Shown here in pieces: positions 8,872 to 37,800 of a stretch of 64,000 nucleotides of DNA (positions are counted from its first letter, which is position 1; each line of letters starts with the position of its first letter). A program made the translations under genes and the position numbers. The notes under the pieces were generated by a model. It saw only the letters and a program-made list of their open reading frames with translations, ran no database searches and was not told the origin of the DNA. The DNA comes from Dermatophagoides farinae (Eukaryota > Arthropoda > Arachnida > Sarcoptiformes > Pyroglyphidae). Where the stretch lies: positions 310,001-374,000 of the forward strand of contig NC_134681.1 of the NCBI RefSeq assembly GCF_024713945.1, read 5' to 3'.

Positions 8872-11800
8872 ATTGTTCAACATGGTTTCCCATATCAGCC
8901 TACATCGATTGCATTCGATCCAATACAACGGTTAATTGCAATTGGATCGAAAAATGGTTCACTACGAATGTAAGTCAAAATGAAACAAACAAGAACAACA
9001 ACAAAAAAAAATTTCATAGGAATGAGAAAACACACTAGTTTGATGAAAACTTTTCTTTCCAATTTGTTCAACCAAAAAAAAAAACCGAAACAAAATCTCA
9101 TCTATCTATCTAATAATGTATTACCTAGAACAAAACAAAAATGATGATGATGATGAATCCAGATAAGTTCACAATGACACCACTATCACAGTATTCATCA
9201 TGATTATTGATGATTCAAATTCAGTGTTTGAACTAAAAATAAAAATAAAAATAAAAAAAAAGAAAAGAAATTCCGGTTTAAAGTTTCAATAATTTATTTA
9301 TCGTATTTTTCATTTTTCTCATTTTCATTTCTTATAAACACAATGATTGACATCCATCGTCCTCGTTTTTGGTGTGAATCTTATCAAATTCCAATCAAAA
9401 TGAATAACAACAACAACAACAACAACAAAAGTCTGGGACGTCCAGGAGTCGACATCAGTCTTCGTCATGTAACCGAATTTGCTGTATTGCAAATCATTTT
9501 CATTATTAATGAGGTAAATTTATAATGTATAACATTTAAATTGTAAAAAAAATACTAAAATAGTGAACATGAGAGGATTCTTTTCTATAAATAGTGGTAA
9601 ATCCAACAAAACGAAAAAAAATGATTGAAAGATCCATTTGGAATAATAATGATAACATGATTCCCACACACACACACACACGCACACAAACACTGGTGCG
9701 TTTTTGGGGATAAACTGAAATCCATCATGGCCAAAGATTTCGTGATTAAGAATAGAAAAAGAATAACCTCAAAAAATTGTGCATTCGTGTGTGTGTGTGT
9801 GTGTGGCCCTTGTATGAAAATATTCATATTAGTTTTTTTTTATTTGATTAGCTTTGACAAACAAAAAACAACGGCTAAGTAGTCAAAACGAATTTTCTCT
9901 TGCACAGGAAAAAAAATTTAACGAGAAAAATTAATGAATTAAACCAACAGAATAGAGAGAGAGAGAGAGAGCGAGAGAGATGATGTGCATTCCAAATATG
10001 ACACACGCGATGGCCATGATATGATATCCATATAATAATGTCAGAGAATCGGTTTAATTTTTTATTATAATCATTTAACAACAACAACAAGTATAACCAA
10101 TTATATTATCAGGTCAAGAATTTTTTTTTGTTTTGTTTTTGTTTTTTCATCATCATGATTCATGAAACAATGATGTTCATCTTTTCGATTCTGGAATGTT
10201 TATAAATATAAACGCTAATAATAATGATGATCGATCCATTCACATAGTACATTCGATAAAGACGCACACACACACAGATTGTTATTTTTTTTTGTCGCCT
10301 TTTTGATTGTTGATTTTAATTAACAGTGAAATTTTTTTCTCTCTTTCTCTTTTCTACATTCGTTTATAATTAATGATGATGATGATGATGATATCTATGA
10401 AATTTAGGGCCAATTAATAACCGTTTGTGCCGATGATAGTATTCATCTTTGGAATCTTCGAAATAAATCACCAGAAATTGTCCATTCACTCAAGTTTCAA
10501 AAAGAAAGGTATTATTATTATTGATATTTTGGTATTGATTTGCAAAAATTTTTCAATAATCTTTCATTTGTATATCATTAGGATTTCTTATTGCCATCTA
10601 GCATTTCAAAGTAAATGGATGTATATTGGTACAGAAAGAGGCAATGTTTATGTTGTCAATATCGACACATTTGCCATGTCTGGTTATGTTATAAATTGGA
10701 ATAAAGCAATCGAAATGTTTGTTATAATAATTGCATATATATTCTTAAAAGACTGATTGATTGATTTATTGATCTTTTCACTTTTTGTTTGTTTGTTTGT
10801 TTGTTTGTCTGCATAATGATAAAGATCTCGTAAAACACATCCTGGTTCAATCATTCATCTAAGCGATTGTCCAATTGATTCAAATAAGGTAAGCACGATT
10901 ATCATCATAACAAAAACAGCAAAAAATGATTGATTGATAAATAATTTATTGAATATTTGATCATCATTATCATACAAATAGCTATTAATTGGATATGAAT
11001 CCGGTAGTATTGTTTTATGGGATTTACGTAATAAAAGTGCCGATTTTCGTCATAATTATCCGGAAGGAATACTATCCATTTCATGGCATAGTGAAGGTAG
11101 ACAATTTATTTGTAGCCATGCTGATGGTAGTCTTAGTACATGGAACCTTAAAGCCGGTTCTAGGCCTCAATCATCAATCTTTCCACATGGTTTGTGCAAA
11201 AAAAAAAAAAAAAAAATTTCTCATTTCTAATATTCAATTATTCATTAACATTTGCTTTTTTTTATTAATGGCAAAAAAAAAAATCAGCCAAATCAGGTGA
11301 TCCAAAATCCGAACTATGTTCGAAAATACCAAAAGTTGAATGGCGTACATCACGTACTGGTGATGCTTATATTATGTTTTCCGGTGGTCTTATTGTTGGC
11401 AATGGTGGTGGTGGTGGTGGTGTTGGTGGTAGTGATAGTGCCAATACTAAACAAGTATTGACTGTAATTCATGGCAAATCAACAACAGTTTTGGAAATGG
11501 AACATGATATCATTGATTTTATAACCTTGTGTGAATCGCCTTATGAAGCTGATTTTAATGATCCATATGCCATAGTTGTTTTACTTAGCAATGATCTAGT
11601 GGTAGTTAATCTTCAACAACCTGGGTTAGTTTCCAAATTGTTTTTTTTCTCTTTCTTCTTCTTTTTTTTTGTCCAACAACGTTACTATGACAATAATTTT
11701 TTTTTCAATTATTCTATTCAATTGTTTTCATGTCTATATATATACAAAAAAAAATCAACGACAGTTATCCTTGTTTTACGAATCCATATCCAATGGATTT

Positions 11801-14800
11801 ACATGAATCACCGGTGACCTATTGTTATTATTTGGCAAATTGTCCACCTGATCTTATACATGCATTTTATACGGTTGGACAAAAATCAAACAAACGTAGT
11901 GGTATGTTGGAACGTGATTGGCCCATAAATGGTGGTGAATGGGGAAGTTCAACAGTAAGCTATCCAGAGATTATAATCACTGGGTAAGTTATTGCCTTTT
12001 TTTCATTTATCTAGAATAATAATCTAGTATAAATGATCAAAGATTATCATCATCATTTGATTTAAAATATGAACATTTTCTTTCACTATTCAATATCTAA
12101 TACTATCTATCTTTACATATTTATAGTCATGCTGATGGTTCATTAAAATTCTGGGATGCATCGGCAGTAAATTTGCAAATATTATATAAACTAAAAACAG
12201 CCAAATTATTTGAAAAGCCAAGACTCATAAATAGCAGCCAAAGTTCTAATAATAATAATAATAATCAAAATAATAACAATAGCAACAATAATAATGTTGG
12301 TTCCAACAATAATAACAACAGCAACAACAACAACAATACGACAAATAATAACGGAACGTCCGAAATGGAAGATTTATTTGCCATTGAATTTCTAACATTT
12401 TCTGCTGAAAATCGTGTACTATGTGTTGCAGGAGCTTCGTCACAAGTGATTGTATTCCGTTTCAGCAAACAAGAAGCTCAATCTGAAATAACAGTTAAGT
12501 TGGTTAACATGCACACACACACACACACACACACATTCGCACAATCACAGAAAGAAAGGAAATTCCACCAATACAATTGCTTAATTCAATCAACTTGATT
12601 GTTTTTGTTGTTGTTATTTCGAAGATAACTTGGAACTTTTTTTTCGCTTCTCTAATTTCTTTTTTTTTCTTTTTTTTTTATTTCATTCTAATCAATGAAT
12701 AAATGATTGGAATCAAATTCAATCTAGGTTATTGAAGTGCCAATGAATTATGATGAAATTGATCCACAATCGGATAGCGAAATTTTATCTGGTGCCTCGG
12801 CATTATTACATAAAGCCGATACACATGATCCTATGGCTTATTATCCATTAAAAGCTCGCACAGGTCATCATAAACGATTATCCGGTTTTCAGGCCGAAGT
12901 CATTTGTCTTAGTCCTTGGATTGATCGTAAAACACCGCCATATCGAATAACATCAATGAGTTATAATATGCACGCTAGTCTGTATGTATAATCATGATTG
13001 AATGAAATTATTCAATTATACATTTTTATTGCAGTTTTGCATATGGTACCGAAAATAGTTTAGTCATCATTGATCTTGTTCAAAAAAGTATCGTGTTAAA
13101 TGTTTCCACTGCATCACTTTATGGTATATATATGATATTGATTTTAATTATTGTCTAATGAGATAATAATTAATTAACTAATCATTGTTGTTGTTACCAA
13201 TAATTAAAAAAAAGGTACAAGTGATCCGTATCAAAGAACAAGAACAAAACGCTGTACATCTGCAGGACCACATTCAAAAGAATCAAGTGATCATAATAAT
13301 GAACATCGTAATGATGTTGATCGTTGTCGTTCACCAATCACCAATGAAAATGTGAGTAATTCTTTGAACAAAAACATTTCTAGATTTACAAATGATGGAT
13401 AAACAAAAAAAAAAATATTTTGCTTGCTTGATTTAATACTTGATCATTTGGAATCAAAAAAAAATGATGATGATGATGAAAATAATTATATTGACATTTA
13501 TTATCATCATTAATTGATTGATGAAACAAAATTCTTAATTCTGAATATATATATCTCTTGTTAGGCATGTGCTTAACAAGAAAACTCTTTGAAAACAAAA
13601 TGTAATACTTGATTCTATTCTATTCTTTTATGTCTTGTCAAAAAAAAAAGAATAAGAATAAGAATCATCATCAGCTACACGCACACACATACATACATAC
13701 ATAATGCATAATACAATGAAAAATATTAGAATCAAGTGAATGTGAATGAATGAACTCAATTGTATGTCCATGTATTGCTAAGATTATCATCATCATCATT
13801 ATCATTGTATTCTACATTATTATTATTATTATTAATGGCTACTTGCAGCAAGTAGTTGTCAAATAATCTTAATGCAACAAAATTAGTACAACAACAATAG
13901 AATAGAACAATGATGATGATGATGATGATGATGTTTCAAAAAATATGAAACATAAATTGCGCCGAATCATTTTTTTTCCTTTCTGGATAGAATTGTTGTT
14001 GTTGTTGTTGTTACCATTATTATTATTATCATCATCATCATCATCATTGCTATTGATCGTATCGTTTTTTTTCTCTCTATTCTCTAACATTAATAGCCTA
14101 GTTTTCATTTTATTTCTATTGATGTTTTTCTTTTTCTATTCTGTCTTGAACACATGATGTTTTGATGACATTGATGTGGTTGCACATACATTTCTATATA
14201 TATATTTATATATATGTGTGTGTATAAATTATATATTCCATTGTCCATTTTCACCATTCGACCAATCCATTATACAGAGAATAAGAATAGGAAGAGAAAA
14301 AAAACACGATATGCTTAACAGTTTCATTCATTCATTTATTCTTCAAGTTAACCATAGTAGATAACAAGACGGATGGTTACATAGATAAATTTAGCAAAAA
14401 AAGAAAAATAAAAAACAAATAAATGTTACTTAAATACGGGAAACAAAGAAAAAAAAATATCGTCACTAGAATTGTCAAGAAAGAAAAATGAACCTAGAAA
14501 TGTATGTACGAAAAACACTAAATACTAAATATAGCAAAAAAAAAGAACAAGAATTGAATTTCTTGAAAGTCTTTCTTGACAATGTTTTTTTTTTTTTTTT
14601 TTTTTTTTGATGATAATGATGATTGGTGTTTGAATGAAGCCAAAACAAAAAAAATATAAATTTTATTACAGTAGAAGGAGTATGATTCTTCTGTGTGTGG
14701 GCGTTTTTGGTGAAACTTATAAATGCCATGTTTTGGCCAGAAAAAAAACGAATTTCTACAATTCATTTTATCATCAATATTATTCCATCATCATCATCAT

Positions 14801-17800
14801 CATATATACATGTATTACAGTTATACACATTTACGTCTCTATACATGCAATATTTTTTTTTTTTGCATATTATTTGAATAATCAAAATGTATCAATTTCA
14901 CATTTATATTTTGCCATCATATTTTTTTTTCTCTTACCCCGTTTATGTTGATTTTTTCCCCTATTTTTTTCGCAATTCAAATTTTGAAATTTATCATCGC
15001 ATCACACATCACATTAATATTCTATATATTTCAATGATTTTTTATGGATGAAAATTGAAAAAATAAATGCTGAATATAAATTCAACCATTGTTTGTCAAC
15101 CATAACAACGACGACAACAACGACAACAATATAACAGGACCCAAATAATGGTGAATCCATTGATTCAACAACAATTCTTGATAATAATAATAGTTATAAA
15201 GATCGTTATTGTGATGAAGAAATTGAAAATATAATTAAAGAGCTGTCTAGTCCAGAATCACGATTATCGTCTTCAGAAGATTCTAATTCTGAATCAAAAT
15301 CATCATTACTTAAACAATCATTATCATTGGATACGAAATCTTTTACATGTTCATCGAAATCATCAATAGCCGATAATGATAATCTCAATGATGATGTTAA
15401 TGATGATGATGATGGAATAATCCAAAATGAATTATCAAAAGAAAAAATGAAAACATCATTGGAACAATCACCAAAGATGATTAGGAAAGAAGATGATCAA
15501 TTGAATGAACAATTTAAATCATCATTGGAAATGCCAAAAGCACCACCACGACGTAAACATAATAATCGAAACAAAAATATAATGGATTCTAAAAATGTTG
15601 AACAGATTAAAAATGAATCGGATTTTGATTCGAAAAACATTGATAAAAATGATGAAGATATTGATGGTGATAAACTGTCATTACATTCATCACAAAAAGA
15701 ATTTTTACCTCAATCATCATCATCATCATCATCAATGTTGGTACATTCAATTTCATTAATTGAACCATCATTGTCATCATCATCATCATTTAGTGATTGT
15801 AATAATCGTACAAGACATTATGCCGGATGGGATACATTTAAAAAATATCGTAAACATAAAATTTTCGATCTCCGTAATGATGCTCATGAAACAATTCATC
15901 ATGGTAGTGGAAGTTTTATCTCGTTAATCAGTGAGTCCCAACCATTTTGTTTTGTTTTGTTTTATTTTTGTTCATATTTTTTCCCACCATTATTCTGTCT
16001 AATTCTATGACTTTCAAGTCTCCATTCTATAACATAACATATATATCTTTATAACGAATCTTTACTGCTTATTAACTTTGAATTGATAATGTGAATTTTT
16101 TTTTCGTCATTGAATTTCTGTGTAACCAAGCAAGCAAATTTTATTGATATCTATCAATAATTTACAATTTTTTTGCGAAAATTTGTCTCTAATTACATTA
16201 CATTATTACTTTGCTTATTTCTTTCTTTTTTCTCTTTTCCTCTTTCTCTCTCTCTTTCTTTCTATCTATTTTTTTCTGATTTTTTCTTTTGAAATCATTC
16301 CATGAAATCTTTTTTTTGTTCAAAGGATGTTTGTATGAGTCCAACGACAATAGGCGGCAATCGTAATTCAGGTTTTCATCATCATAGTTCATTATCATCA
16401 TCTACGAATTTTGATGGTTCATTGGGTGCTACAGGAAGTGGTGGAAGTGGTGGATGTTCGCCGTCATCATTAGGTACGGCAACATCGACAATACTTTCAT
16501 CAACATCACCATCGGCAACAGCGTCATCGTCCGCAGCTGCTGCTGCTGCAACGTCAGCCACATCAACATCATCATCGAATATATCACGTTCAAAAGCGAT
16601 TCCACAATCCATAGTGAATACCGAGCTGAAACGTTCACGTTCTCAAGGTACTCGAAACAAGTTACAAATGATGCATACCATACATCAGAGTATGATGATT
16701 ATGCCAGCATCAATTGCTACTGACCATCGTGGTGATCACCATCATCATACTGATGCGTCCGACAGGCTCATCAATTCGAGTAGTATAAATCATATCGGGC
16801 TTCACCATCACCATCATTTACATCATGGCGTCCAATTAGGATCAGGTGGATAGTAGTTGTTGTTGTTGTTGTTGTTGTTGTTGTACTTGTTGTTGTTGTC
16901 GATGTTGTTGTTGTTGTCGTTCTTTGTTGTCGCTCATTGATTGTTTTTTGTTTCTTTCCTTTTTTTTCCCACTTTTATATTTTGATACAATCAAATCAAA
17001 TCCATTATGTAGTTGTTGAAAATCCTTTTCATTATTAGTTAGTAGTTCTGTAAATGTAGTATCAATATAGATTGATAAGTTTTTTTGAAATCGAAAAATT
17101 GATTCCATTTTTGTTTTGTTTTGTTTTTTTTTATTTTCATCCCGTTTCTTGTTTTAATCGAAATTATTATTCTATATCCATCCCTATTATGATGATCAAT
17201 ATCAACCTTTATTGATGGCTTAATTTCAATCCATCCACACATCTTTAGAATAGATAACATTGAATCCAATACCATGTTTTTTTTTGGAATTATAATTGTA
17301 GTTTTTTGTTCCCAGTTGCATCATATCCATTCATATTAGCAAAGCTATGTGCTAGTATTATGATCACTCTATATGTGTAGTTATTATTGCCCAAATTGTC
17401 AAAAAGAAAAAAAAACAACAACAAAACCAATTCCTCACTCAATTTTAGGATTCAAGATTTTTTTTTCTTTTTTAATAATCACAAACAATAGTATAGAATC
17501 ATCATAATCCACAATAGATGCATAATAATAGAATGCAAGCTATTTAGCTAGAATATATGAATTAGATGATGATAATTTTTTATTCATAAAAAAAGCGGAG
17601 TTGACATACACACACCCACACACACACACACACATACTCATATACCATACATATATATGCATAGAATACAAAAAAAATTGAAGAAAAAACAAAGACATGA
17701 AATATTTTCGAATCAATTGTTCCTCGACATCGACATTTATTTTTATTTTTTTTTTTTTGATCAAGATTTCTTTTTTTTTCATTGGTTTTTCATCGATCAT

Positions 17801-17941
17801 AGTTTCGTTTGATTTTATTCTTTCCTTCCTTACAAAATAAAAGCGACAAAGAGAGAATGATAATCAAACGATTAATCAATCAATATTAATTAGCTCGAAT
17901 ATAGTGACTACCGATTTTGATTCAGCGATTTGGTGAGCCTT

Positions 17942-17972
<31 letters not shown>

Positions 17973-18384
17973 CTTGTCGAATCATGATGATCATTTGTGT
18001 AAAATACCAAAAAAAAACGGAAACGATTCTTTAAAAAATAATTATTCAAACTTTGTCTTACGATATATTCAATTATAATTGTTGTTGTTGTTGTTGTTGC
18101 CGTTGTACTCCACATCAATTTGCCAATTTTCTATTTTGACTTTGATTCTGATTCTTTTTTTTCTGTTTTTTTTGTTTTGTTTCGTGTTTATCGATTTTGA
18201 TTGTTCTTATTCATTTGTTTTTATTGTTGTTGTTGTTGTTTTGCTATTATGGTTTTTATATGGTTTCGTTTTGTTTTGTTTTTTGTTGTTGCATATATTA
18301 AGCCTGAATATAAAAACAGCCAAAAACAGACCAAAAAAAAAAAAACATTTCGTTTTGACATTACAAAATTATGAAGAATTGCCA

Positions 18385-18415
<31 letters not shown>

Positions 18416-21400
18416 TCCCATATATTCATTTATTTATTTGTTATAATAATGAAAATTTTTTATACTGAACGGAAAAAGTCAATTTAAATTTTTAAAAGTA
18501 TCCTAAAAAGCTTTTTTTTGTGATTGAGTTTGTTTGTGTCAAACAGTTTCCGAGTGAATACGATCGATATTTTAAATTTTTAACTTTTTTCCGATTTTTT
18601 TCTTTTCGTTTTGCCATTTTTTGTTGCATGTTCATTTGTTTTTTTTTCATTCCTTTTGGCCGTTGGCGTATATCCCCACGCCAATGCATATGGATGGATA
18701 TAGATTTGCAAAATTTTCCAAATTCAAATTGAATTCATAAAGGCGAAGAAGAAATGAAATTCACGTGAATTTATTTTTATTTTTTTTTTTTTTTGCAAAT
18801 GGCCATCATGTCCAGAATTGGACAAAAAAAAGCAAAAAAGAAAAATGACATTTTTTTCGTTTGTTAAATTTTGATCCAGAATAGAATTAATAAAAGTTAT
18901 TATTTAGAAATGAAAACAATTTTTTTTCCATTTTTTCCGTTCCATTCATTCATTTATTCATCAATTCAATAATGTTGTTATAATTTATGTTAGAATAAAT
19001 TCTTGTTTGTTTGTTTGTTTGATTTTATTTAATATTCTATTTCATTCTATTCTGTTCTGTTTTTTTTCCCAACTTATTCCTTTTTTTTCATCATTCTTGT
19101 CAAGCTTATTTGATTTGTTTCGTCTATATTTTTTTTCACCCATTCTCTTGTCATCATCATCATCATGTTTTTTTTTGTCCGTCATTCGGTTAGTTCGGTC
19201 AGAAAACGACCACTCATTCATATCAAACCAGAAAAAAATGTTGAAAAAAAACGTCGATTCTTTTCATGTCCAATACCATTCATTGTACCCATACAGTGCG
19301 GCTCTTTGGCCAAAAGATATTGGCTTTTTTTCCAATGAAAATTTTCTCATAAATTTTTGATATCAAGTATTTTTTATTTTCAACAAAAAAAGGAAGAAAA
19401 AAAAATAAAAATTCATTGAATTCATTGTGTGTGTGTGTAGTAAATTTGACCGACTGACCAAACCATTACGATGATGATGATGATGATGATAATGGCCAAA
19501 AAAATGGAAAATGGAAGAAAATAACTTTTTTTTTCGCTGGCTTTCCAATTCCAGTGTGAGTGTGCGTATATAGTTGTCATGAAAAAATTGCTTTGTTGCG
19601 CCTACTATTCGGTGGATGCATCTTTCATTTTTCATTAAAGTATTTTTTTTTGTCTGTTTGAAATTGACCAATGGCCCTTTTTTTCCGTAGATAGATGAAA
19701 ATGTTGATGAGAATGGACGCCATTTTTTTCTAGTTTGCCCTTCATGACTAACTTTTGTTTTGTTCTTTCTATTGCAACATTGAGTTTCACATTGTGTGGA
19801 ATATTGGTCAAATTTTTTTTTTGCTGGTCGATCGACGATCCATTTAAGTGTTTAGAAAGGAACAAAAAAAAAATTCTCTTTTTTGGATCCAAAATGTAAA
19901 AAAAAAAGAAAAACACAAATTCCTTCCATTCTATTCGTCATATTTGTATACATGTGAAATATAGAGAAGAATTTTCAAAATGTTTGGCATTCTGTTTTGA
20001 TTGATTCCTTTCTATTTGAGTGTTTTTCGTTTTCCTAAATATATAAATTCACTTTTGACTCATATCATGCATGTAATTTTCCTACTTTTCTCCGTTGTTG
20101 AATGAATTTAATACATATATACATATGAAAGTTTGCTTGCAGTTAAACTGAAATTTTTTTTTTTGGGGAAAAATAAAAAAAAAATGAGAAAGTTTTGATG
20201 TATGCATGAAATGTGTGTGTGTGTGTGTTGTTGTTGTTGTTGTTGTTGTTTGGTGTTTGGTGTTTGGTGTTTGGTGCATAGGTGTTGGATCGAGTGTCGA
20301 TTTATCGGTATTCATTCATATATGATTTTGACATATTCTTGATGTTGTTGAATTTTTTGAAAATAATAACAATAATAATAATAATAATAATAGTATTTTT
20401 TCGCATGATTTGTTATTGATCACTAAAAAGAAAAAAAAGAAAAATGTCCAATTTCTCTCTCTCTCTCTCTCTTTCTCCTTCTCGATTCTTTCTCTCTATC
20501 TCTCTCTTTTCTCTATCTTTCATTTCATTCTATTTTTCGTAACACACACACACACACACACCTACACACAACGCTTTCACATTCACACACACCTGTCCAC
20601 AAGAACAAAAAAAAAATAAACATTTATCCATAATAATTCAACTATACTACTAACAAACAACTGAATAACATGAATTTGGAACAATAATAATAAAAAAAAA
20701 ATTTAAAAATATTAGGAAAAATGAACTAACAACAACAACCAAAAAAAAAACACTCAGCTTTGAAAAGAATTTTCTTTTTTTTTGATTTATATATAATCAA
20801 AATTAATATTCGCTTTTTTTTATGGCTAATAACTGATCACATCACTTTGTGTGAATATATATAGATATAAATAATTTATGTGACGATGATCGATTTGCTT
20901 TGAATCTGATTGCTATTGATTTTCAGCTTTTTTTTTGCTTTTTTTTTTTGTTCTGAAATGCAACTCTTGTTGTTGTTATCGATTTTTTTTCTTTTCTTCA
21001 TGTTTTGCATGGCTTTTTTTTCACACTACTATAGTAGTAGTTTTGCCTGTTAATCATCATATATTTATTATGTTTGATGTTTGAGAATTCCTAGTATATA
21101 TCAAATTCTATTCCTTATTTCCATATATGTAATCTAATGAATGTCTTTTCAATGGTTGTTCTATTTAGTCAACCTATGACAAAGACAAACCAAAAAAAAA
21201 AAAATCTTTTCTCTCAAGTTCATTCCTTTTTTTCCTATTTATATATCTTTTTTTTAATGAAAAAAAATGTGTATGATGATGAATATAATAATGCTAATCA
21301 AATGTCATATATTTATTTATTATTTGATTGATTTATTTGGATTCGTGAATGTCATACATTCATTGTAGACAAAATTGAAAGCTTTACCCGATCACGAAGC

Positions 21401-22957
21401 TCCAGTATGTCTAGCCTGGAGAATGTTGGCAGTGAACCAGTTCAATTTTTGATATTTGCCAATACTTATGTTCTCAAAACTGGTATGTTTCGATTGGTTT
21501 TTCTGTTGTTGATAATTGATCTTGTTTACTTTTTTTGAATGATGAATTTTGTCATTTAGATACTTGTCCCAGTCCAACACTTTGGGTGGGTACAAGTTGT
21601 GGTACTGTAGTTGTCATTACATTGACAATGCCCGATAGCATGGACAATCGTGTTCTATGTTTGCAAACTGTTCTAGCAACACCTAGTCGTAAGTGTCAAT
21701 CATATTTGAATCAAAGAATGATTGGAACTAATTCATTTTTTTTTTTACATTCACAATTCATTTATAGCGACCATATTTCGTTTGAAAGGTTCAATATTGA
21801 ATATTGGATTTCTTGATCTAAATGGGTGTAGCCTACCATTATCTGCTGATTCATGGAAAGATAATAATAAACGAAATGAAACTTCAACACCGACAAGCAC
21901 TGGTGAATCAAATAAACGTACCGGATCATTGACTATCACTCGTACAGGTAGTGGTGGTTCGGCAAGCAATCGAATGACGAAAACATCGCCCACATCTAGT
22001 ACAACCGATGTACGAGATTCACATTTGGTCGTGTTAACATCGGAAAAACAAATTCGTTTGATTGTAATGCCTCAACAGATTTGTGCTCAAAAAGCTGTCA
22101 TCACTGAAACATCGTTTGCTGTACGAGCTGATCTTGTATTTATTAAGAATCAAGGTTTGAATCAAAAATATTGTTTTTCTCTTATCTTAATTCATTGATG
22201 TTTTTTTTCTGCATTCATTCAAAATCATAGATGCTTATTGTTTAGCAGTATATCTGGGCACCGGCAACATTGTAGTCTATAGTTTGCCAAGTCTACGTAT
22301 CTTAATTGATAATGATTTTTTACCATTAACTGATGTCAGGTATGTGAATTTAATTAATTTCTCTTGATTTTAATTTACAAATTTATTTTTCTTTTCTTTT
22401 GTTTTTTCATTTAGAATTGCACGAACAATACTTTTTAGTGTAAATGGTCATGGAATGTATCTATCATCACCATCAGAGTTGACAAAATTCACAATATTGG
22501 CATCATTCTGTGACAATTTACCCGATATGATTGGTTCAGTATATACTGGTCCAAAAGAATTACCCGAACCGCCCAAACAATCATTTTTAAAAGGTTTTTT
22601 TGGTGGCACACCGACACCATTAGATCGTGAGGAATTGTTCGGTGAAACGAATGCCGGTAAAGCGCCCAAAACAATGGCACGTTTAATACCAGGGTCAATT
22701 GAACATGCTAAATCACAATCCAGTGCTATTGGTGGTGAATTTGCTAAATTAAAAGAGGTAATATCAACAATTCTTTGTGAATTTCTTTTATTCATATTTT
22801 TTTTCTAAAAAAAAAATAGGGCCTATCCGAACGTGGTGAACGTCTTGGTAAATTAGAAGATAATACAGCTCGTATGCAAAATGAAGCTGAAGCATTCAGC
22901 AGTATGGCACATGCTGTTATGCTCAAATATCGTGATAAGAAATGGTATCAATTCTAA
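8872..22957 (+). CDS. tomosyn: Tomosyn / syntaxin-binding protein 5 (N-terminal exon not found)
   Basis: Tomosyn is a cytosolic SNARE regulator. It binds syntaxin and SNAP-25 through a C-terminal VAMP-like motif and restrains vesicle priming and exocytosis. Nineteen exons close in frame: 8872-8969, 9432-9513, 10408-10508, 10582-10716, 10825-10888, 10982-11189, 11288-11624, 11765-11983, 12127-12493, 12728-12981, 13035-13123, 13215-13351, 15138-15930, 21369-21482, 21560-21688, 21768-22154, 22231-22339, 22415-22757 and 22820-22957. They give about 1,367 residues. Family landmarks include HGFPYQPT, LGRPGVD, FQSKWMYIGTERGN, NPYPMDLHESPVT, PEIIITGHADGS, SRSSS in the linker, LKGFFGGTP, LDREELFGE and the terminal YRDKKWYQF. 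Two WD40 propellers are followed by a variable Ser/Asp/Asn-rich linker and the R-SNARE tail. Mite-specific Gly and Asn runs interrupt the propeller at about 11,400 and 12,250. The SNARE zero-layer residue is Asn rather than Arg. The start codon is missing: the first exon found begins at the residue matching about position 50-60 of vertebrate tomosyn. Confidence 0.95.
15138..15930 (+). CDS. tomosyn: Tomosyn linker exon 13a (long acidic/serine-rich version)
   Basis: The exon is 793 bp, enters in phase 0 after 13,351 and leaves in phase 1 at a strong GTGAGT donor. Joined to 21,369 it reads ...SLI-N-KIESFTRSRSSS, which matches the start of the conserved linker tail. It is acidic and serine-rich, has a proline/basic patch KAPPRRK and a run of Ser codons, and ends in a basic stretch (FKKYRKHKIF). 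Its acceptor follows an A/C-rich (ACAACG) tract rather than a pyrimidine run, so the acceptor looks weak. Confidence 0.85.
16326..16647 (+). CDS. tomosyn: Candidate alternative tomosyn linker exon 13b
   Basis: An open frame follows a strong acceptor (T-rich tract ending CAAAG at 16,325). It enters in phase 0 like exon 13a and can leave in phase 1 at CAAG|GTACTC (16,647), again like 13a. Splicing 13,351 to 16,326 and 16,647 to 21,369 keeps frame and reads ...KRSRSQ-D-KIESFTRSRS. The encoded segment is rich in Ser, Gly, Ala and His (runs SSS, AAAAAA, GSGGSGG) and its codons are clearly more GC-rich than the surrounding intron. If the 16,647 donor is not used, the frame continues to TAG at 16,851-16,853 and gives a His-rich tail with no SNARE motif. 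Vertebrate tomosyn isoforms differ by alternative splicing in this same linker, which supports an isoform exon. No transcript evidence is available. Confidence 0.55.
16857..16918. repeat. (GTT)n microsatellite immediately after exon 13b's stop
   Basis: About 60 bp of TTG/GTT triplets with a few interruptions, starting directly after the double TAG codon of the candidate alternative exon. Confidence 0.85.
16919..21368. other. Large tomosyn intron remainder, low complexity
   Basis: This is the bulk of the 5.4-kb intron between the linker exons and 21,369, far longer than most introns of the gene. It holds GTT, CT, CA and T tracts. I found no further exon with coding composition, although further alternative linker exons could be hidden here. 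Confidence 0.6.
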
Positions 22958-25615
22958 GAATACCACACCAAAAAAGAAAAAAAATTCTTCAATCTCTCAT
23001 TTTCACTATTTATTCAACAAACGTACAACGATCAAAAAAAAATCAGCCATCATATTTATATACATTATAATCACCATATATTCATATATGGTGTATATGT
23101 AACAATCGGATAAGAATATGGATTATTTATCAACAATCTCATAAAATCATTTCATCATCATCATCATCATCATCATCAATCATCATTCAATCAATCAATC
23201 AAATGTTTTTCAAGAATAATTTAAATGATGATTTGTTATGAAGAATTTGAAAAAAAAATATTCATTCAATTTGTATTGAATTAAAGAAAAAAAATGGACA
23301 AATTAATGAATCACATGGTGTTGTGATGAAAATGTTTACAGGAAAATGAAATGAAACAAAACAAACGAACAATGATGAAGATGAATATTGGAAAATTTTG
23401 TTATTAATTTGTTAATTTTATCATCACTTTATAAATTATCGCTGTTGATGTTATCGAAAAATTTTTTTTTTCAAACAAAAATTTTAAACATTTTCTCTTC
23501 ATCATATTATCTACTATTCTTGCGTTCTCTCTTGGAAAAAAATAATAATAATAATAATCTCATCTTACCATCCTATACATATGCTTATTATTATGATTTA
23601 ATGTTATTTCAATACAGAAAGTATTTTATTTTATGAACAATTCAGTTACCACACACACAAATACACACATAAATACAGGACAAGATAAAAGAATTTTCAG
23701 TATTCACAAATGAAAAAACATTACACAAAAAATGGCTAGATTGTGATCATCATCGTCATCGTCATCATTATTTAAACGATTGCCATATATATTTGATTTA
23801 TTTAATTAATTAGTGAAACAAACAAAAAAAATCATGTCCATATAATATTCATTTACGTCATCAACGGGATGTTTTCTTGTTGTTGTTGTTGGTGTTTGTT
23901 TGATAAAATACCAATATAACACAGCAAAACAAAGTAGTGAATAAACAAACAAACCAAAATACATTTAGGAAATATATAACTACATTGATTGATATATTTT
24001 TTTTCCTTTCTCGAAATTTCCTTTCAATAACACCAAAAAAAATTATTATTATTATTTAAATTCCATCTCATTAGCATTGTCATGACCAACGAAAAAAAAA
24101 AAATAAATAAATAACTAAGTCAATTATCATTGTGATGAATGATTGGAATTCGTCTCTTTTTCACTTCGATTTTTTTCATTCATCAATTTTTTTCTGATTT
24201 TCAGTCTTTCTTATTCTGGCCATCATCATCATCGTCATCATCATAGTGCTCATCACACACACACAATACATGAAGAAAAATAAAAATATTGAAAACAGGA
24301 AATCAAATTGCCAAAACAAATCAGAAATTTTTCCTTTTTTTCATTTTTTTTTGTTTTTCTCTTTCATCACGATTTTATACATTAAACAACATTCATTCAT
24401 TCATTCATTCATACTAAATCTGGATTCATAATCTGATTGAAAACAAACCAATATAATCAAAAGTCAATGGCGAAAAAAAAATTATTATTATTATTGAAAA
24501 AAAACCAAATTTCAAACAAAAACAAAAAAATTAACAACGTAGTTTATTCAAAACAAAATTTGTGACAAAAAAAAACAAAACAAAAAACAACCATCATTAT
24601 TATTCATTATGTAATGTGTAATACAAACATACTACGCAGATGCATAAACATACATTCACTTCCTAGTGACACACACACACACACAAACAACAGCAAATTA
24701 TCAAATTATTTCGAAATTTGAACCAAAAACAATATATAACCTAAAATCATTCATTCGATTAATTCATTTTTTTCAATAATCAATTTCTCATCATCATTAT
24801 CATCATTGATTTTCTTCGAATTCCGTTTATTCGTTTTGATTGACATCATTCATTCATTCATTCATTCAACATTGAACAATTTTGAATTTAATTTCCTTTG
24901 AATTGTTTTGCGTTCTAAAATCTGGATTTTACGTACAAATCATTTTACACATTACTAATTACATTCTCATCTCTTTGATCACATTATCGATTTTTTTTTC
25001 ATTCTATAAATACAACAATCTAGCATCAAAATATACTTATATATATATAGATTATAATTATTATATATCAGAATTTGTAATCACAAAAACCAAAAATGGA
25101 TCGACCGACAGACAGAATCAATCAATCAATCAATCATATATGATATTCAATCAGATAAATATTCTAATTATCATTATAAATTCATTTGATTATCAACATT
25201 GTTCGCTTTTTTTTGTCTTCAGATTTTTTTCCCATTGCTTTTTTCATTGTCGTTGCTGTTACATTAATCATGATCATCATTACCATGAACACACACACAC
25301 ACACACATGAATGAATTGAATTGAATTATAGCAAAAAAATAAAATAAAATAAAATGAAAATAACATTGATCAGTTAATTCAAGTGAGAATGAATTTTTTG
25401 TTTGTTTGTTTGTTTGTTCATTATTGGGTTTTTTTTCTCGTTCTTACTCAATTTATGTATTCACAATATTCAAGTACAAGGCCCATTTAAAAAAAATGAT
25501 GATTATCTAGATCAAAATATGCTGTATTTCAAAGGAATAAAATTCAATTTGCCATTCAAAATTAAAGAAACAGATTATTATTATCTTGTTCTCTTGATTT
25601 TATATATATATATAT
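22958..25615. other. Intergenic, low complexity
   Basis: Tomosyn 3' UTR followed by AT-rich spacer with (ATC)n at about 23,150-23,183, ATTC repeats and CA tracts. No exon on either strand shows coding composition. No clean AATAAA stands close behind the tomosyn stop, so the transcript end is not placed. Confidence 0.6.
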
Positions 25616-25942
25616 AATAAACTACGATGTTCCATAACATCGTAATGATCATATATCGATAATACGTTCGCAGTCATGATTGGGAATCGGACACTATTGA
25701 AATATTTGTGGATAAAATAAAGCTTTATTGATCAAGTATACGCAGATCATAGATCCCAGATACTCGATGGATAATGATAATTTGGGATGGGTTTATATAC
25801 TAGATTACAATCAATTAGAAACATTAATTAGGTTATAACATTCATTAAATCAAAGTCGAACATTCCATTTAAAATATTCAAACATCACAACTTTGATCAT
25901 TAACATTCCAAAACAATCATGTTTTGGATTTCCAACGTTACA
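25616..25942 (-). repeat. 3' LTR of the minus-strand element
   Basis: On the minus strand it begins TGTAACGTTGG at 25,942. A TATATAAA box lies at 25,792-25,799 and an AATAAA at 25,724-25,729. The terminus near 25,616 is ambiguous by about 3 bp because of shared A/T bases. The purine tract lies just outside it at 25,943-25,955. Confidence 0.85.
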
Positions 25943-26708
25943 TCCCCTCGCTCAAGAGGATGCTTCGGCCAATTCGGGTGTGGTTGGTATTTGGCTCTGT
26001 TGTCATAACAGCAATGATGTTTCTGGCAAATCGACAATAACCAGGTACTTTGGAAATATTGCACGGATAGGGATTAAACAGGTTGATACTTTTTTGGGGA
26101 CTAAGGTTGATTCAGCATTTTTAGACGGACGACCCAGAGAAAACTACAATTCGAACAAATTTTATCATTTTTTTTCATTTTAACAATCCTTTCAATACGA
26201 GTTGAATCTTCTTCATTACATTACAATAAATCATCAAATTTGTTTCATTTTTCACATAATTTTTATACAACTTTTTTGACCAAATTTTCTCGATGCAATT
26301 AACGAAACATTTTCTTAAAAAACCAAAAAAAACAAAATAAAAACAATATCACCAACAATCAGCTAGAGGTGCATTTTGCCCAACCTCTCTATATAGCCCG
26401 GATTGAAGGTGTCCATAAAAATATCACGAACAATCACCATAGATTGAACGTGTCCGAAAAAAACGTTGAAAATTTTCGTAATTGCCATCAAGATCTTCAA
26501 TAAAATCATTGCATCAATTTCACATTATTATAAAACAAAATTCTTCTTTTTTATAACTTCATGATTCATTTTTCTCGTCATATTGATTGCTTTTGAAAAA
26601 CTTTGATTTTGGTCGGTATTCGACCCTCGTTGATATCACTCATATTTTCTCTGGGTTCCGGTGGAACTATTGGACGAACAAATATCGACGATCTTCTTGA
26701 GCCAAACA

Positions 26709-26758
26709 TTTGAAATCCATTTCCCAATGGGAGCGCAAGTTCGAATCTTGCTGGCTTA
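26709..26758 (+). other. tRNA-Ser(UGA) 3'-half-like sequence at the primer-binding position
   Basis: On the plus strand this resembles the 3' half of a serine tRNA. It has an anticodon-loop-like TTTGAAA (UGA anticodon at 26,711-26,713), a variable-arm hairpin TCCC-AAT-GGGA (26,722-26,732) and a perfect T arm GCAAG-TTCGAAT-CTTGC (26,735-26,751). The 5' side of the anticodon stem and the D arm are absent, so it is not an intact tRNA gene. It abuts the 5' LTR, where a complement of a tRNA 3' end is expected, but the similarity is far longer than the usual 18 bases. I do not see a TGG complementing the CCA end. Confidence 0.7.
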
Positions 26759-26759
26759 T

Positions 26760-27086
26760 AATAAACTACGATGTTCCATAACATCGTAGTGATCGTATAT
26801 CGATAATACGTTCGCAGTCATGATTGGGAATCGGACACTATTGAAATATTTGTGGATAAAATAAAGCTTTATTGATCAAGTATACGCAGATCATAGATCC
26901 CAGATACTCGATGGATAATGATAATTTGGGATGGGTTTATATACTAGATTACAATCAATTAGAAACATTAATTAGGTTATAACATTCATTAAATCAAAGT
27001 CGAACATTCCATTTAAAATATTCAAACATCACAACTTTGATCATTAACATTCCAAAACAATCATGTTTTGGATTTCCAACGTTACA
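26760..27086 (-). repeat. 5' LTR of the minus-strand element
   Basis: Same 327-bp sequence as 25,616-25,942 with two substitutions close to the inner end (CGTAGTGATCG here, CGTAATGATCA in the other copy). It carries the same TATA box and polyadenylation signal, so it would drive transcription leftward through the internal region. Confidence 0.85.
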
Positions 27087-29669: not shown

Positions 29670-32586
29670 GTCCAATATTGATACAAACAATGAATCAAAT
29701 ATAAATCTACAATTTTATCGTTCCATTATGAATTTTTATGGTATAAATGAAATCAATCTATCGATGTTATATCGATTGGAATCCACTATAGCGATTGATG
29801 ATCATCAAGGCAAATTACATAGCTGTAAGTATTATTTAATCAATTATTTTGTTACATTAAATTCTGAATTTTCAATTATCAATTGATATTCAATCTAAAA
29901 ATAAAATAATCATCAATCAGTACATTTGGAGATTGAAAACATTTCTGAAACAATTCTATAAATAGCTAATTATTAACGATTTAATTTATGCAATTTTTGT
30001 CATTTTGTTGTTGTTTTTGTTTTATTTTTTTTTCTTTTTTTTTCTTTCATGGACAAATTTATCATTAGAATCGATGAAAAAAAAAATAAATGTACAATCT
30101 GTACAATGTTCATGTAATTGTAAATGATTTCAACGATGAAGAAGAGGTAATATGAAATGTTTTCTTCGAATGGATGAATGAATGAATGAATGATTGAATG
30201 ATTAAATTGAATAGATTGATAAATGTTTATGAACCTGGGGAAATTCCTATCAAGTTCATTTTTTTTTGTTCAAATATAAAATTATTGAATCAATTTCATG
30301 TTCAGTTCAGTTTTTTTTATTGTATCACATTAATTCCTAGTCAATCCAATTCTAGCAACTACCCATGGTGTTTGTTTTTTTTTTTTTTTGATTCTTTCTA
30401 CCCTCTTCACAAATAAATCAAACAAGTTATTCGTACGAACAAATAGTGGTTTGTGAAGTGGTAAAAAAAAACATTTTAACAGAATGTTTGTTTCGAAATT
30501 TTAGCATCGAAAACAAAAATTGATTTAGGAATGATATTGACCTCGGTCAGTTTTTTTTTTTGCTTTCGGATTTATTCATTTTTTTTCTTATCTTGTGTAT
30601 CCCACTGTCTCTTGTGTTTTTTATTCATCATCATCATCATCATAAGCATCACACATGTTCACAAAGGTCTCTCTATGTTTTTTCATTACTTTCACTCTCT
30701 CAAATGAATGTTGTCAATCGATTGATGAGAATGACAACAACAACAACAACAACAACAACAAAAAACAACAACGAAACGATAATGAAATATTTCAAAAAAA
30801 AAAAAATTAAAATCTCGTTTTTTTCTTTGCTCTCTGTCCAAGACATTCACATGCATCCAACCATTCATTCAATACATATACACGGCACACAAAAAAAACA
30901 AATAATTAGTTTAGCATGAATTTAGTTTGAAAATACGTCAAAGAGAGAACAAAAAAAAAATGAAAGCGAGAGAGAGAATATTTTTTTTTTATAAAAAAAC
31001 GACAACAACAATTATGATTATGAATCGAAAAAAGAAAGAAAAAAAAGTGCTAATAGTGGAACATTGATTATGATGATGGACAAGTGCAACCATTTGATGA
31101 TGATGATGACGATAATGATAATGGATAATGAATATTGAAAGATACAGACAAATGAAGAAAATTGAAATGTAATTACGTTGGCAATGAAAATTATTATCAT
31201 CATCATCATCATCAAAATATCTAAGACTGACATTCATGTCTGTAAACACATACACACATAACTCTTCCAATTTTATTTTCACAATAATAAAAATAACAAT
31301 AACACTATTATTAATACTTCAACAACAACAACAACAAACAACGAAAAAAAAAATCAGACAGGCATTGAGAAAAAAAAATGCAAAGATAGTGAAAAGGAGT
31401 AAAAAAAAGGATCCAAAAGTTGAAAATGAAAATTATTGAAATTTTTGGCAATGAAAATTATTATTGCACACACACATGCATACACAAAGAGAGAGAGAGA
31501 GACAAATGTGAAGCAATGAAACTCAGTCTTGTGTATCCTTGTTTTATCGATTTTTTCTTTCTTTCTTTCTGTTCAATAAATATATTATTATATATTATAT
31601 ATACCGTGTTATAATGCTCAATACTGAAAACATGGATGAACAAAAATTCAACTTGAATACACAGAAACAGAAACAGTTATATGCAGGTATAAAAAAAATG
31701 AAAGAGAAATGAAATGAAATGAAATGATCTGTAAATTCATCGCCATCATCCTTGACCTGATGGTCAATTGTATTGTTTTGAATTTTCTAAGGTCTGTCTG
31801 TCTCTTTCTTTCTTTATTTCTTTTTCTCTCTTCTTTTTCAAATGTAAAAGAGAAGAAAAAAACTTTTCGGAAAAAATTTTTCAACGAAAAAGTTTTCCAT
31901 TAAATTGATGGATGATGATGACCATAAATGCGACAATAATTAATTTCATAATTAATAAAATTTTAATAAAAAATCATCATCATCATCATCATCACTATCA
32001 TTAAGACGCTTGTTGAATGATTGCATAAGGAAAAATAATAATTATCATGGTTGTTGTCAATCGTTTTTGAATCGATTGATTTTAATAATCAATCAAATTG
32101 ATTGATCCAATATTGAAATGATTGCATATGGAAATTTTCCCATTATTTTCATAGAAATGCATAATTAACGATTGTTTTTTTTTTGTTTTTTTTTCATTTC
32201 AAACAGATCAAATTAGCATGCTATTCGTTGCTGTTATATCGATTTTAATCGAAGTTGGATTAATCTGTAGCATCATATTTGAACATTTTAAATTGAGCCT
32301 ATTCTATAATATTATTATGATTGTTGGACTTTTTCATCATTTATCGACATCATCATCATCATCATCATCATCATCGTCAACATCGACAACATCATCGATT
32401 ATGGTACAGAATGATAATACGGATGGCATTACATCATCAATATCATTAATATATCAGATATTATTCCTCATACTATTTCTCATATATTCATTTAGTATAA
32501 AGGCAAAAAATAAGTTTGCAAGACGTTTGTTGATCAAGAATGAAATTGAACTTAATGCCGATCAACGATTCATACAAAAAGCATAA
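29419..32586 (+). CDS. Four-pass membrane protein, family not recognised
   Basis: Two exons, 29419-29824 and 32207-32586, join in phase 1 (GTAAGT donor, TTTCAAACAG acceptor) to give about 261 residues. A hydrophobic segment lies near residues 38-64. A loop of about 70 residues follows, with a Thr-rich tract encoded by (ACA)n. Three more hydrophobic segments lie near residues 139-158, 163-182 and 216-236, with a poly-Ser stretch between the last two. The C-terminus is basic then polar (ends FIQKA). There is no signal peptide and no tetraspanin CCG motif, and the first loop lacks the W/C pattern of claudins. The start is the first ATG of the open frame. The 2.4-kb intron might hide another exon. 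The function is unknown. Confidence 0.6.
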
Positions 32587-33781: not shown

Positions 33782-34822
33782 TTAATATGTTGGACGTTTA
33801 CGTATACCACAATATTGATTTAATGTTTTTAATCCACATGGACGTTTACAGCATTCATCAACGATACCACGTTTTGGTCTTTGTATACGATTGTGATTAT
33901 TATGATTCTGTAATGATGACAATGATGATCGTGAATATGTATCTAAGAAATCGATTAAATCTTGATTTGTATTCTTATTGTTATTAATTTTATTATTATA
34001 AAATTGTGTTGATTGATGTTGTTTTTGTTGTTGTTGCTGTTGTTGTTGTTGATGTGAATATTTTAATATATTCAATATATCAAACCAGGTTAATTCGCCA
34101 AAATTATTATTATTATTATTATTATTATCATTATTAGTATTACCATTAACCATTAATAATAGATTCATATCATTGAAATCGACATCATTATCGACATTAT
34201 TATCCTGTACACTATTTTTATATATTGGTTCATTTTGATGATCTTTAATTGAATAAATGTCAATTGTTTCTGTGTTAAACAAAAGAAAAAAAAATAGTAA
34301 ACAGTTAATTTATTCGATTTTCATATAAAAACAAATCTTTTTTTTCAACACCATACCTTCTGCAATTGGATTAATTGATTTGGATAATCCAGATGTTCGT
34401 TTATTTGCATAATAACCTTTACAATAAAGTGCTAATGCTTTGATTAGATTTTCACCACAATAATGTTGTTTTTCTGCACCACGTGTTTCAATTTTAATTG
34501 GCATCATCGATGATGATGATAATGATGATGACGAAACAATTGGTAATAATGAATTGATTGATTCATAATTATCAAAATTTATGTTATTTTTATTCGATTT
34601 AATCATCATTGTATCTTCGGCTGTAGAATCAGATGATGATGATGAATAAATTGGAAATAAATTTTCACCATTAATTCCACCATTTTCAGCATTATTTTCA
34701 TTACTTGATAATGTTGCCATGACGCCATCATTGTTGACATTGATCAAATGGCACAAACAGCCGATTATTGTCGCTACAATTGACAACATTTTTGATTTCC
34801 TATTCATTACAATTGTTGACAT
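33782..34822 (-). CDS. Insulin/IGF-like preprohormone
   Basis: This is a secreted ligand precursor of the insulin family, expected to act through the insulin receptor. Two exons (34822-34357, 34269-33782) join in phase 1 and give about 317 residues. A hydrophobic signal-like stretch covers residues 12-28. The B chain contains CGENLIKALALYC (Cys122 and Cys134, 11 residues apart as in insulin) and ends at a dibasic ANKR site. The A chain follows KR at residues 288-289 and reads GIVDECCKRPC...YC, the canonical CC-x3-C-x8-C pattern. Its opening GIVDECC is also found in vertebrate IGFs. Odd points are a segment of about 90 residues rich in Ser, Asn and acidic residues between signal and B chain, and a C-peptide of about 145 residues with Asn and Gln runs. 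An intron inside the C-peptide is typical of the family. Confidence 0.93.
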
Positions 34823-37800
34823 TTTTTTTCGTGTTCAATTTTTGAATGTCACGGGTTGCGTCAATGGTTGCTGATAAAAAAATTGGATTGTGAAGAAAGA
34901 AAATAACCTTTTTACGAAGATAAAAAAAACCGTTGCAATAACAACAACAACAACAACGACAACGTCAACAACAAAATTATTTCGCAGATGATTCGTATAT
35001 AAATATTTCATTCATTTATTCAATGTTTTTTTTTTGCTTATATATCTAAACAAAAAAAAGATTGAATCAATCAATCAATCAATCATTTCAACAAAAATAG
35101 TACATTCACAATTCTTAATCACAATTAGATTCAAAAATACAAACATCAAATCAACTTGTTCGAATTATATGATTCGATTGATTTTTTTTCTTTCTTGTTG
35201 AACAGTTTTTATATGCCATGATTGTTCCATATTGCTACCGTTATCGTCAAATATCATCATCATCATCATCATCATTATGATACAGAGAATAATAATAATA
35301 ACATGGACCGCCCCTACTTAAAAAAAAAGAAAATAATCGGGGTCGAAAACCGAATGAAAATGAAGAAAATCCAAAATCAAAAAAAAAGTAAATGTTTTTC
35401 ATGGATTCCACTTATTTTTTCTATGTTTGGATTGTTCATTTCATTCATGTAATATATGGTAGTAGTATTTACACATGTAGACAAAAAGAATTTCGTTTGT
35501 TTGTTTTCCATTGTGAATTAAAATCATACGCAATTGGTATATCATACATGTACAAGAAGAAAAAAAAATACGAATCCATAATTCCATGTAGAAGTTGTTC
35601 ATAGATGATTGTGATACTTGTTTGTTTTTAATTCAAATAAAAGAAAAACAAAAATTCTGTAGGATGGTGAAAGAATCCAAAAAAAAATCAATCCATTATC
35701 AATTTTTTTTTTCGTTTTTGTTTTGGTTTTAAATTCAATTCTAATTCATTCACAATCAATCAATTACAGATCACAGTTTTCATTTTTTTAGTATTGATTT
35801 TCAATGAGAAAAAAAATTTGCTGATCACATGAAAATTGGGCCTGTCAATTGCAATCAAAAAAATAAAAATAAAAAAAATAAAATAAAAAGATGAAATTCT
35901 TAATAAAATGAAAATAGATTGATTAGAAAAAAATCAATTTTTTTCGATTTTCTATTTTATATTTGGTTGTTGTTGTTGTTGTTGTTATTTTATTTCAAAA
36001 TTTTATCACCATTTTTTTCATCATGTAACAACAACATTCCGGTGTACTCACGCACACACACACGCACACAACACGATCAATTGACATTGGATCAGAAAAT
36101 TCTAGAATTTAATCCATTACAAGCGTCATTTTGTAAATGGAATCAAATCAATGATTAGTAGTAGAAAATATTATAATCTCAAAATGGAAGTTTTCATAAT
36201 TGCTTTAATCCATTCTGTTTGGATTTTTTTTCATTTCTTTTCATCTTAGCGCTTGTATATTATGACCTTAGTCCAGACAAATAAGAGAATTTTTAAAATT
36301 TAATCCACCAAATCTGTTGTGGTTTTTTTGGTTGTTCTAGTTCATCTTTAAGTGGTGTGTGTGTGAACATGAAAATTATGGAATTGGCCAGAATATTCTT
36401 GATCATATGATTAGAACCAATATGATGACATTTAAGTAGTTATTTTGTCCATTTTTATATTTGAAAGCAAGAAAAATAAAATAAAATTAAAACAAAAATA
36501 TTGAGCAATCATTCAATAACAAATTAATCGATTATTTGACATTCGATCTTTGTAAACAGAAAACAAAAAATTCATTTTCAATAAAATATTTTCCATCATC
36601 AACATCATTACATTCAATGCATTTAAACAACAACGTGAAAAAAAACCTGAGCAAGGACGAGTTTTTTTTTTGATTTCATTTTTCACCTTCGTTTCACTCA
36701 CCATTTTTGGTCTGAATTTTTTTTTCTTTTGTTCAAAAAACAAAAAAAAAAACACCAACAACAATCGATTACCATTATCCAAAAAAAAAAAATATATAAA
36801 TTGTTAAAAAATGAAAACAAAATGACAAAGAGAGTGGTACGATTTTTTTTTGTTTTTACGAACAACTCAACAACAACAACAACAACAACAACAAAACAGG
36901 TAATCCGACAACATTCAATGTCAAGCATTTTGGTTGTTTTATTTTTGGTTTTTGTTGTTGTTGTTGTTGTTGGTGTTGGTGTTTTTTTTAACAATTGATT
37001 TTTATCATTATTTATGGATTGTTTTTAGAAAAAAAACTGGAATAGAATTACAACAACAACAACAACAAAAAAAATTATAATTATCAAGGTGTTATAAACA
37101 ACAACAACAACAACAACAACGACAAAAACGACAACGACAGTAATTACTAATATAATAGGTAAACCAACCGAAAAGAAAACTTTTTTCTTCATTCATTCAA
37201 ACAACGTACAAACAAACGAATGAATGGAGTAAAAAAAAAGACTATTTCATCAAATTTGAAAAAAAATTAACCATTGGACATTTTTTTTTCTCCGAAAATT
37301 GGAATTGAAATATAAAATGTCATTCTCTGGTGACGATATAATGTGACGCTCTATTGGGTTTTTCTCTCCTATCCACTATGGCTTGATTTCTTTCTCTCCC
37401 TCTCTCTCTCTCTTTTTTTCCCATCAACAACAATACCTCTAAATTTAGCAATATAAATTCCATCCGGTCGGATAAAGCAAATTTTTGTTTTTATCTGAAT
37501 ATTTTTTTTCTTGGTTTTTCTCATTTTCATTTTTATTTTGTTTTTAATCGCTTTTTAACTTTTTTTTTGTCGTTTGTGTTCGTATGAATTTATTATGTAT
37601 TAGTCTGAATGCACTTGCAAGTTATCTATTTATTCATTTTTTTTTTGTTTTTTTTTGATGAACTTAAATTCAATATAAAAATTGCTACATCTCACACGCA
37701 CACATTGTACAGCATAGATAACTGTTGACATCATCATCATCATCATCGTCATCAATTATTCCGATATATAACATATCAATCGTTTATGAATTTCTGTCAA

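Follow-up and report, generated by a model that had tools for sequence, protein, structure and literature searches.

Tomosyn restrains secretion by nerve cells, and its alternative splicing has been described in flies, vertebrates, and nematodes. In Drosophila, tomosyn is reported to have two mutually exclusive exons, 13A and 13B, that code for a loop in the WD40 scaffold (Sauvola et al. 2021, PMC8612732). According to that report, 13A is highly conserved among insects while 13B is poorly conserved, and both forms rescued release in the fly mutant, with 13B being less effective when overexpressed. In vertebrates, exon use in the hypervariable region of tomosyn-1 and tomosyn-2 is reported to give the s, m, b, and xb forms (PMC3188574). 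A SUMO site of tomosyn-1 (K730, SLPTDLKPDLDVKD) is described as lost in form s1 by exon skipping and as absent in fly and worm (PMC3948876); a PKA site is reported at 724. In C. elegans (tom-1A and tom-1B), a 5' exon within an intron is reported to yield a short, SNARE-only form (PMC10112904). Here, we describe the tomosyn gene of the mite Dermatophagoides farinae, in a window of 64,000 nucleotides (nt) from contig NC_134681.1 (positions 310,001 to 374,000 of the forward strand), and a candidate second exon for the linker of this protein. All positions below are those of the window.

Judging by its domains and the order of its exons, the forward-strand gene that spans roughly 8.9 to 22.96 kb encodes tomosyn (STXBP5), as originally predicted. 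A tblastn search with human STXBP5 (a sequence with no accession, which was also used for alignments) recovered the exons in order. The N-terminal scaffold contains an LLGL domain (PF08366 in Pfam, E = 3.3e-24, exon 11290-11622); downstream of the linker, the protein matches LLGL2 (6n8p_A, E = 1.7e-11), which corresponds to an Lgl-like second propeller; and there is a C-terminal R-SNARE (VAMP-like) motif, with the SNARE part of the tail matching a chain of m-tomosyn (1urq_A, E = 1.2e-9). Because all three parts are present, we assign the gene to the tomosyn family. When one of the downstream exons was used as a probe, its single match in the genome was itself. Our partial model begins at 10408, and residue counts run from there; exons at about 8873-8970 and 9432-9513 precede it. 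Since there are further exon(s) upstream of 10408, the number 13 in the names of the mite exons, which comes from the original prediction, is not comparable with the fly numbering.

The linker region contains the following features (a slash marks an exon border), and we also list the end of the gene:

13215-13351, forward strand: constitutive exon before the linker (YGTSDPYQRT...DRCRSPITNEN), which enters in phase 1 and exits in phase 0, from the gene model and tblastn; its donor is GTGAGT
15138-15930, forward strand: linker exon 13a, 793 nt, phase 0 to 1, acidic/Ser-rich; AACAG/GACCC ... AATCA/GTGAGT
16326-16647, forward strand: exon 13b as drawn in the original prediction, 322 nt, phase 0 to 1; TTCAAAG/GATG ... 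TCTCAAG/GTACTC
16326-16853, forward strand: coding-like block that contains 13b; an open frame of 175 codons and then TAG at 16851-16853
16648-16853, forward strand: continuation of the frame of 13b to the stop, which points either to use of the block as an alternative last exon or to a longer exon that ends at a later donor
21369-21482, forward strand: constitutive exon after the linker, which begins KIESFTRSRSSSMSS and enters in phase 1, from the gene model and tblastn
22820-22958, forward strand: last tomosyn exon, with the C-terminal R-SNARE end (...KYRDKKWYQF) and the stop

The single most likely reading of this locus, although we hold it tentatively, is that it has a second alternative linker exon that is a candidate to be swapped with 13a within one interval of about 8 kb. 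What we observed directly is the gene with its constitutive flanks, the phases, the coding-like block, and the rule by which the exons as drawn keep or break the frame. From these, we infer that the block is spliced into the tomosyn mRNA as an internal exon, which would exclude 13a and alter the linker.

The gene model reproduced the borders and phases that had been claimed for 13215-13351, 13a, 13b, and 21369-21482, and it places both 13a and 13b between the same two constitutive exons. As claimed, the two segments are of low complexity and unlike each other. Joined translations also agree with the original arithmetic: either exon alone keeps the frame into 21369, while joining 13a to 13b leads to a stop after 914 residues (TAA at 16364-16366). 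Skipping both exons breaks the frame as well, with a stop after 664 residues, which the original prediction did not mention. The interval contains no other coding-like candidate that runs from phase 0 to phase 1: among 43 other AG..GT pairs at least 60 nt apart, the best coding score was 2.8, as compared to 36.7 for 13b. A six-frame scan of 16900-21300 found no further segment on the forward strand above 11.3.

The mite locus resembles that of Drosophila, as described in the fly report, in that there is just one tomosyn gene, one of its exons has two candidate alternatives and codes for a scaffold loop, and one of the two looks dominant and better formed. The difference is that exclusivity in the fly was asserted by the authors on the basis of annotated splice variants, with both forms expressed, whereas in the mite it is an argument from the reading frame. 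The likeness is one of arrangement, and the exon numbers are not equivalent. The locus also resembles those of vertebrates, in that the site of splicing variation, as reported there, is in the part of the linker that immediately precedes the segment matching mite exon 21369. This agrees with the original suggestion that the site is shared with the variable linker of vertebrates, a correspondence that depends on alignment to the human sequence without accession and on the reported K730 site. Vertebrate tomosyns are reported to skip or add exons there, whereas the mite has a candidate swap. Neither mite exon resembles the linker of this human sequence: the alignment score was reached by 173 of 1000 shuffles for 13a, 302 of 1000 for 13b, and 507 of 1000 for the whole block. 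As in C. elegans, the alternative exon would lie within a tomosyn intron, but the worm's is reported to be the 5' exon of a SNARE-only form. We confirmed no relative in viral_contigs (20 stretches with the pattern) or in genome_contigs (137), viral and prokaryote collections in which mites would not be expected. Literature searches on tomosyn and mites, judged by title and the start of the abstract, showed no paper on splicing of tomosyn in mites. As mutually exclusive splicing at such a tomosyn exon has already been published for Drosophila, the mite would be at most a further member.

To score splice sites, we used a matrix from 42 introns of this genome that were placed by homology (17 in tomosyn and 25 in myosin). 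Two of the 17 tomosyn introns flank 13a and hence are not independent for that exon, and one of the myosin introns (L055, 0.82) looks doubtful. Codon scores were compared to 164 null frames of at least 45 codons from the non-coding parts examined, and openness was compared to 2000 dinucleotide shuffles in which any of the six frames could be open.

Exon 13a is well supported and is more than chance: it was open in 0 of 2000 shuffles, and its acceptor scores above 36 of the 42 references, although its donor is above only 3 of 42. Its codon score is poor (8 of 164 null frames reach it, and 125 of 164 do so when only synonymous choice is scored). A modest codon score is expected because this stretch is rich in Asn, Asp, and Ser, and is AT-rich.

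The block that begins at 16326 also appears to be coding. All of 16326-16850 was open in just 11 of 2000 shuffles, and such openness is found on the forward strand only. The codon log-likelihoods of 16326-16646 and of 16647-16850, taken separately, were each above all 164 null frames. The signal turns on at the acceptor: the codon score is -9.6 over the ten codons at 16293-16322, is then about zero, and is mostly positive past 16326 (0.318 per codon over the first 15 codons). The pyrimidine fraction upstream of 16326 is 0.71, within the range of the 17 tomosyn acceptors (0.24-0.90), and this acceptor scores above 8 of the 42 references. GC content is 0.40-0.44 in 90-base windows from 16575 to 16889. 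Tandem repeats make up little of the block.

Several observations weigh against a second exon of the form that was drawn. The extent of 13b by itself was open in 206 of 2000 shuffles, so its openness alone is not beyond chance, and on synonymous choice alone it is ordinary (reached by 62 of 164 null frames). The open frame and the coding score run past 16647: the running score is 36.7 at 16647, 48.7 at 16782, and 41.9 at 16845. The donor at 16647 is weak. It scores above only 2 of the 42 references, it has a C at +4, which is found in 0 of 42, and its score is equaled or exceeded by 98 of the 403 GTs in 13360-21360. Matrices from the 17 and from the 42 introns agree on its weakness, and the donor at 16689 outscores it with both (5.2 versus 1.87 and 2.94 versus 2.52, respectively). 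The AGs before 16354 and 16372 outscore the acceptor at 16326, and joining 13a there gives no stop. Finally, an antisense open reading frame (ORF) at 16385-16642 outscores the sense frame (70.1 versus 53.9). Antisense shadows also lie over known tomosyn exons, for instance at 22463-22744 (41.1 versus 50.6). Thus, the exon end at 16647 could not be confirmed and is doubtful, and we consider the natural unit to be the whole block. The alternative borders are:

16354 and 16372, forward strand: two alternative exon starts, each after an AG and each scoring above 36 of the 42 reference acceptors; both accept 13a in frame
16689 (AGA/GTATGA) and 16731 (GTG/GTGATC), forward strand: two alternative exon ends, in phase 1, that score slightly above 16647

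The original prediction took the identical phases of 13a and 13b as a sign that they are mutually exclusive. But a phase-1 exit is the default for a GT: it holds for 21 of 29 GTs in the frame of the block, which is a further point against a second exon as drawn, and likewise for 18 of 30 in the frame of 13a and for 121 of 197 in the other modelled exons of tomosyn. Pseudo-donors leave in phase 1 by default because GT in coding frames sits mostly at codon positions 2-3. We therefore rejected phase identity as proof of mutual exclusivity. The phase-1 ends at 16473, 16689, 16731, and 16845 all read through as well as 16647 does. Joint inclusion breaks the frame if the second exon starts at 16326, but not if it starts at 16354 or 16372. 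Given the phase-1 default and these in-frame combinations, the shared phase is weak evidence of exclusivity, which also does not follow given the weak donor and the extension of the block past 16647. In sum, the original observation held for the coordinates, the arithmetic, and the coding-like block from 16326, but not for the end at 16647 or for the informativeness of the equal phases; its interpretation held for the identity of the gene, the position, and the correspondence to the vertebrate linker, but not for exclusivity as stated.

Steric exclusion of the pair through crowding can be ruled out, because 395 nt separate 13a from 13b, and the shortest myosin introns in the genome are 50 nt. 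Another means of exclusion might be a long-range helix in the RNA:

13359-13374, forward strand: predicted 5' arm, 8 nt into the upstream intron
16313-16328, forward strand: predicted 3' arm, which includes the AG at the 16326 splice site

The start of the upstream intron holds a perfect complement, 13 nt long, to the sequence that ends with the AG of the 16326 acceptor, and this extends to 16 pairs, including one G-U; the three outer pairs of each arm were placed by reading the sequence. When 220 AGs are ranked by duplex energy, the 16326 acceptor shares first place with AG 16340, which overlaps it; the next uninterrupted helix that does not overlap has 11 pairs. Pairing between the exon-12 donor and the 16326 acceptor was reached by 4 of 1000 shuffles, and this is the only one of six pairs of splice sites to stand out. 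The other pairs were unremarkable (153 of 1000 for this donor with the 13a acceptor, 59 of 1000 with the 21369 acceptor, and 723 to 995 of 1000 for the other three). Because the helix was found post hoc and in one genome, we treat it as a lead. Such pairing could mask the acceptor at 16326 or cause 13a to be looped out.

With a second alternative linker exon, splicing might work as follows. The default form of tomosyn would use 13a, and in some transcripts the block, entered at 16326, would replace it. The block would be left via one of several weak phase-1 donors, at about 16473 to 16845. The swap would exchange a long acidic linker between parts of the WD40 scaffold for a shorter one rich in Ser, Thr, Ala, Gly, and His, and the SNARE end would be unchanged. 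Exclusion would come from loss of frame in the unwanted products, and perhaps also from the predicted helix, in which the 5' splice-site region upstream would pair with the 16326 acceptor. We favor this reading because of the frames of the products, the codon signal that turns on at the acceptor, the openness of the whole block, the pyrimidine stretch, the lack of any other coding-like phase 0-to-1 candidate in the interval, the precedent of 13A and 13B in the fly, and the rank of the helix.

A serious rival, next in plausibility although unlikely on balance, is that the block is an alternative last exon, entered at 16326 and read to the TAG at 16851-16853, with an intronic poly(A) site. Its product would be a scaffold-only tomosyn that lacks the second half of the C-terminal propeller as well as the R-SNARE. 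The frame and the island of raised GC finish together at the stop, the continuation at 16647-16850 outscores every one of the 164 null frames (when only synonymous choice is scored, 3 of 164 reach it), and no phase-1 donor beyond 16371 exceeds 3.78 with the 42-intron matrix. The first AATAAA is 983 nt past the stop of the block, which argues against this proposal, although the distance from tomosyn's own stop to its first AATAAA is similar (982 nt, with an ATTAAA at 322). Also, removing the SNARE motif is reported to have abolished rescue in flies (PMC8612732), so the product would lack the main known activity. A variant of this proposal, in which the helix of 13359-13374 with 16313-16328 gates the last exon by hiding or delivering 16326, strikes us as a long shot. 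If instead the block is not a tomosyn exon at all, it could be a low-complexity intron segment of raised GC, or an antisense or unrelated coding stretch. This would fit with the lack of any Pfam match or second copy at the DNA level, the weak splice sites, the higher-scoring antisense ORF, and the lack of significant similarity to the linker of vertebrates (302 of 1000 shuffles reach the score). We consider it quite unlikely, given that the whole block is open on the forward strand only, that the coding signal begins at the acceptor, and that there are few tandem repeats.

Two other arrangements seem improbable. In one, a cassette starting in phase 1 at 16354 or 16372, and ending in phase 1, is added to 13a rather than replacing it. 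Both acceptors are stronger than 16326 (36 of 42 versus 8 of 42), the joined translations are free of stops, and three downstream tomosyn exons also run from phase 1 to 1 in the gene model. But the coding signal is already positive in the 15 codons from 16326, neither acceptor is preceded by a pyrimidine tract (the fraction is 0.38 before 16372), and the same weak donors would be needed. Slightly less probable still is an alternative first exon, with an internal promoter, that would give a short tomosyn that keeps its SNARE. The short form of C. elegans, tom-1B, is a reported precedent (PMC10112904), and there are in-frame ATGs at 16302 and 16335. A T at -3 is a poor context for a start codon, and both ATGs have it. 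Furthermore, 16293-16322 scores as non-coding, and this arrangement also requires the weak donors.

Elsewhere in the window, there is an insulin-like peptide gene on the reverse strand (33785-34834; PF00049, E = 1.7e-9). Its A-chain-like end is similar to IGF and to fly DILP2, and a B-chain-like stretch can be read in a neighboring ORF (34310-34834), which has no Pfam match. A fatty acyl-CoA reductase-like gene with several exons lies on the forward strand at 38578-40331 (PF07993, E = 3.5e-43; PF03015, E = 2.7e-27). Two direct repeats of 300 nt each (25613-25912 and 26757-27056) are 99% identical and 1144 apart, and they could flank the remnant of a mobile element; the ORF at 25839-26183 has no Pfam match. 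The ORF at 32155-32586, on the forward strand, has a weak, below-cutoff match to PMP22/claudin-like proteins (E = 0.0073). A gene resembling group-2 allergens is also present in the 62.4-Mb genome; among solved structures, it is closest to Der p 2 and Der f 2 (best E = 1.6e-30), which points to an astigmatid mite. In the rest of the genome, there are 26 matches to chaperonin (Cpn60/TCP1; L017-L042). Many of these are full-length and intronless, and several are on the higher-numbered contigs (C14-C21); the intronless matches might indicate contigs from a symbiont or a contaminant, or these genes might simply be intron-poor.

As it stands, a second linker exon in mite tomosyn is a reasonable hypothesis of gene annotation with a published precedent. 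If the block is a last exon, then mites make a tomosyn without a SNARE, and a naturally SNARE-less tomosyn under the control of RNA structure would be unusual, if true. If the candidate swap is real, chelicerates would join flies in varying the scaffold loop by splicing, which would suggest that selection keeps the loop and not a particular sequence. It would also offer a test of the loop's role in vesicle binding and release.

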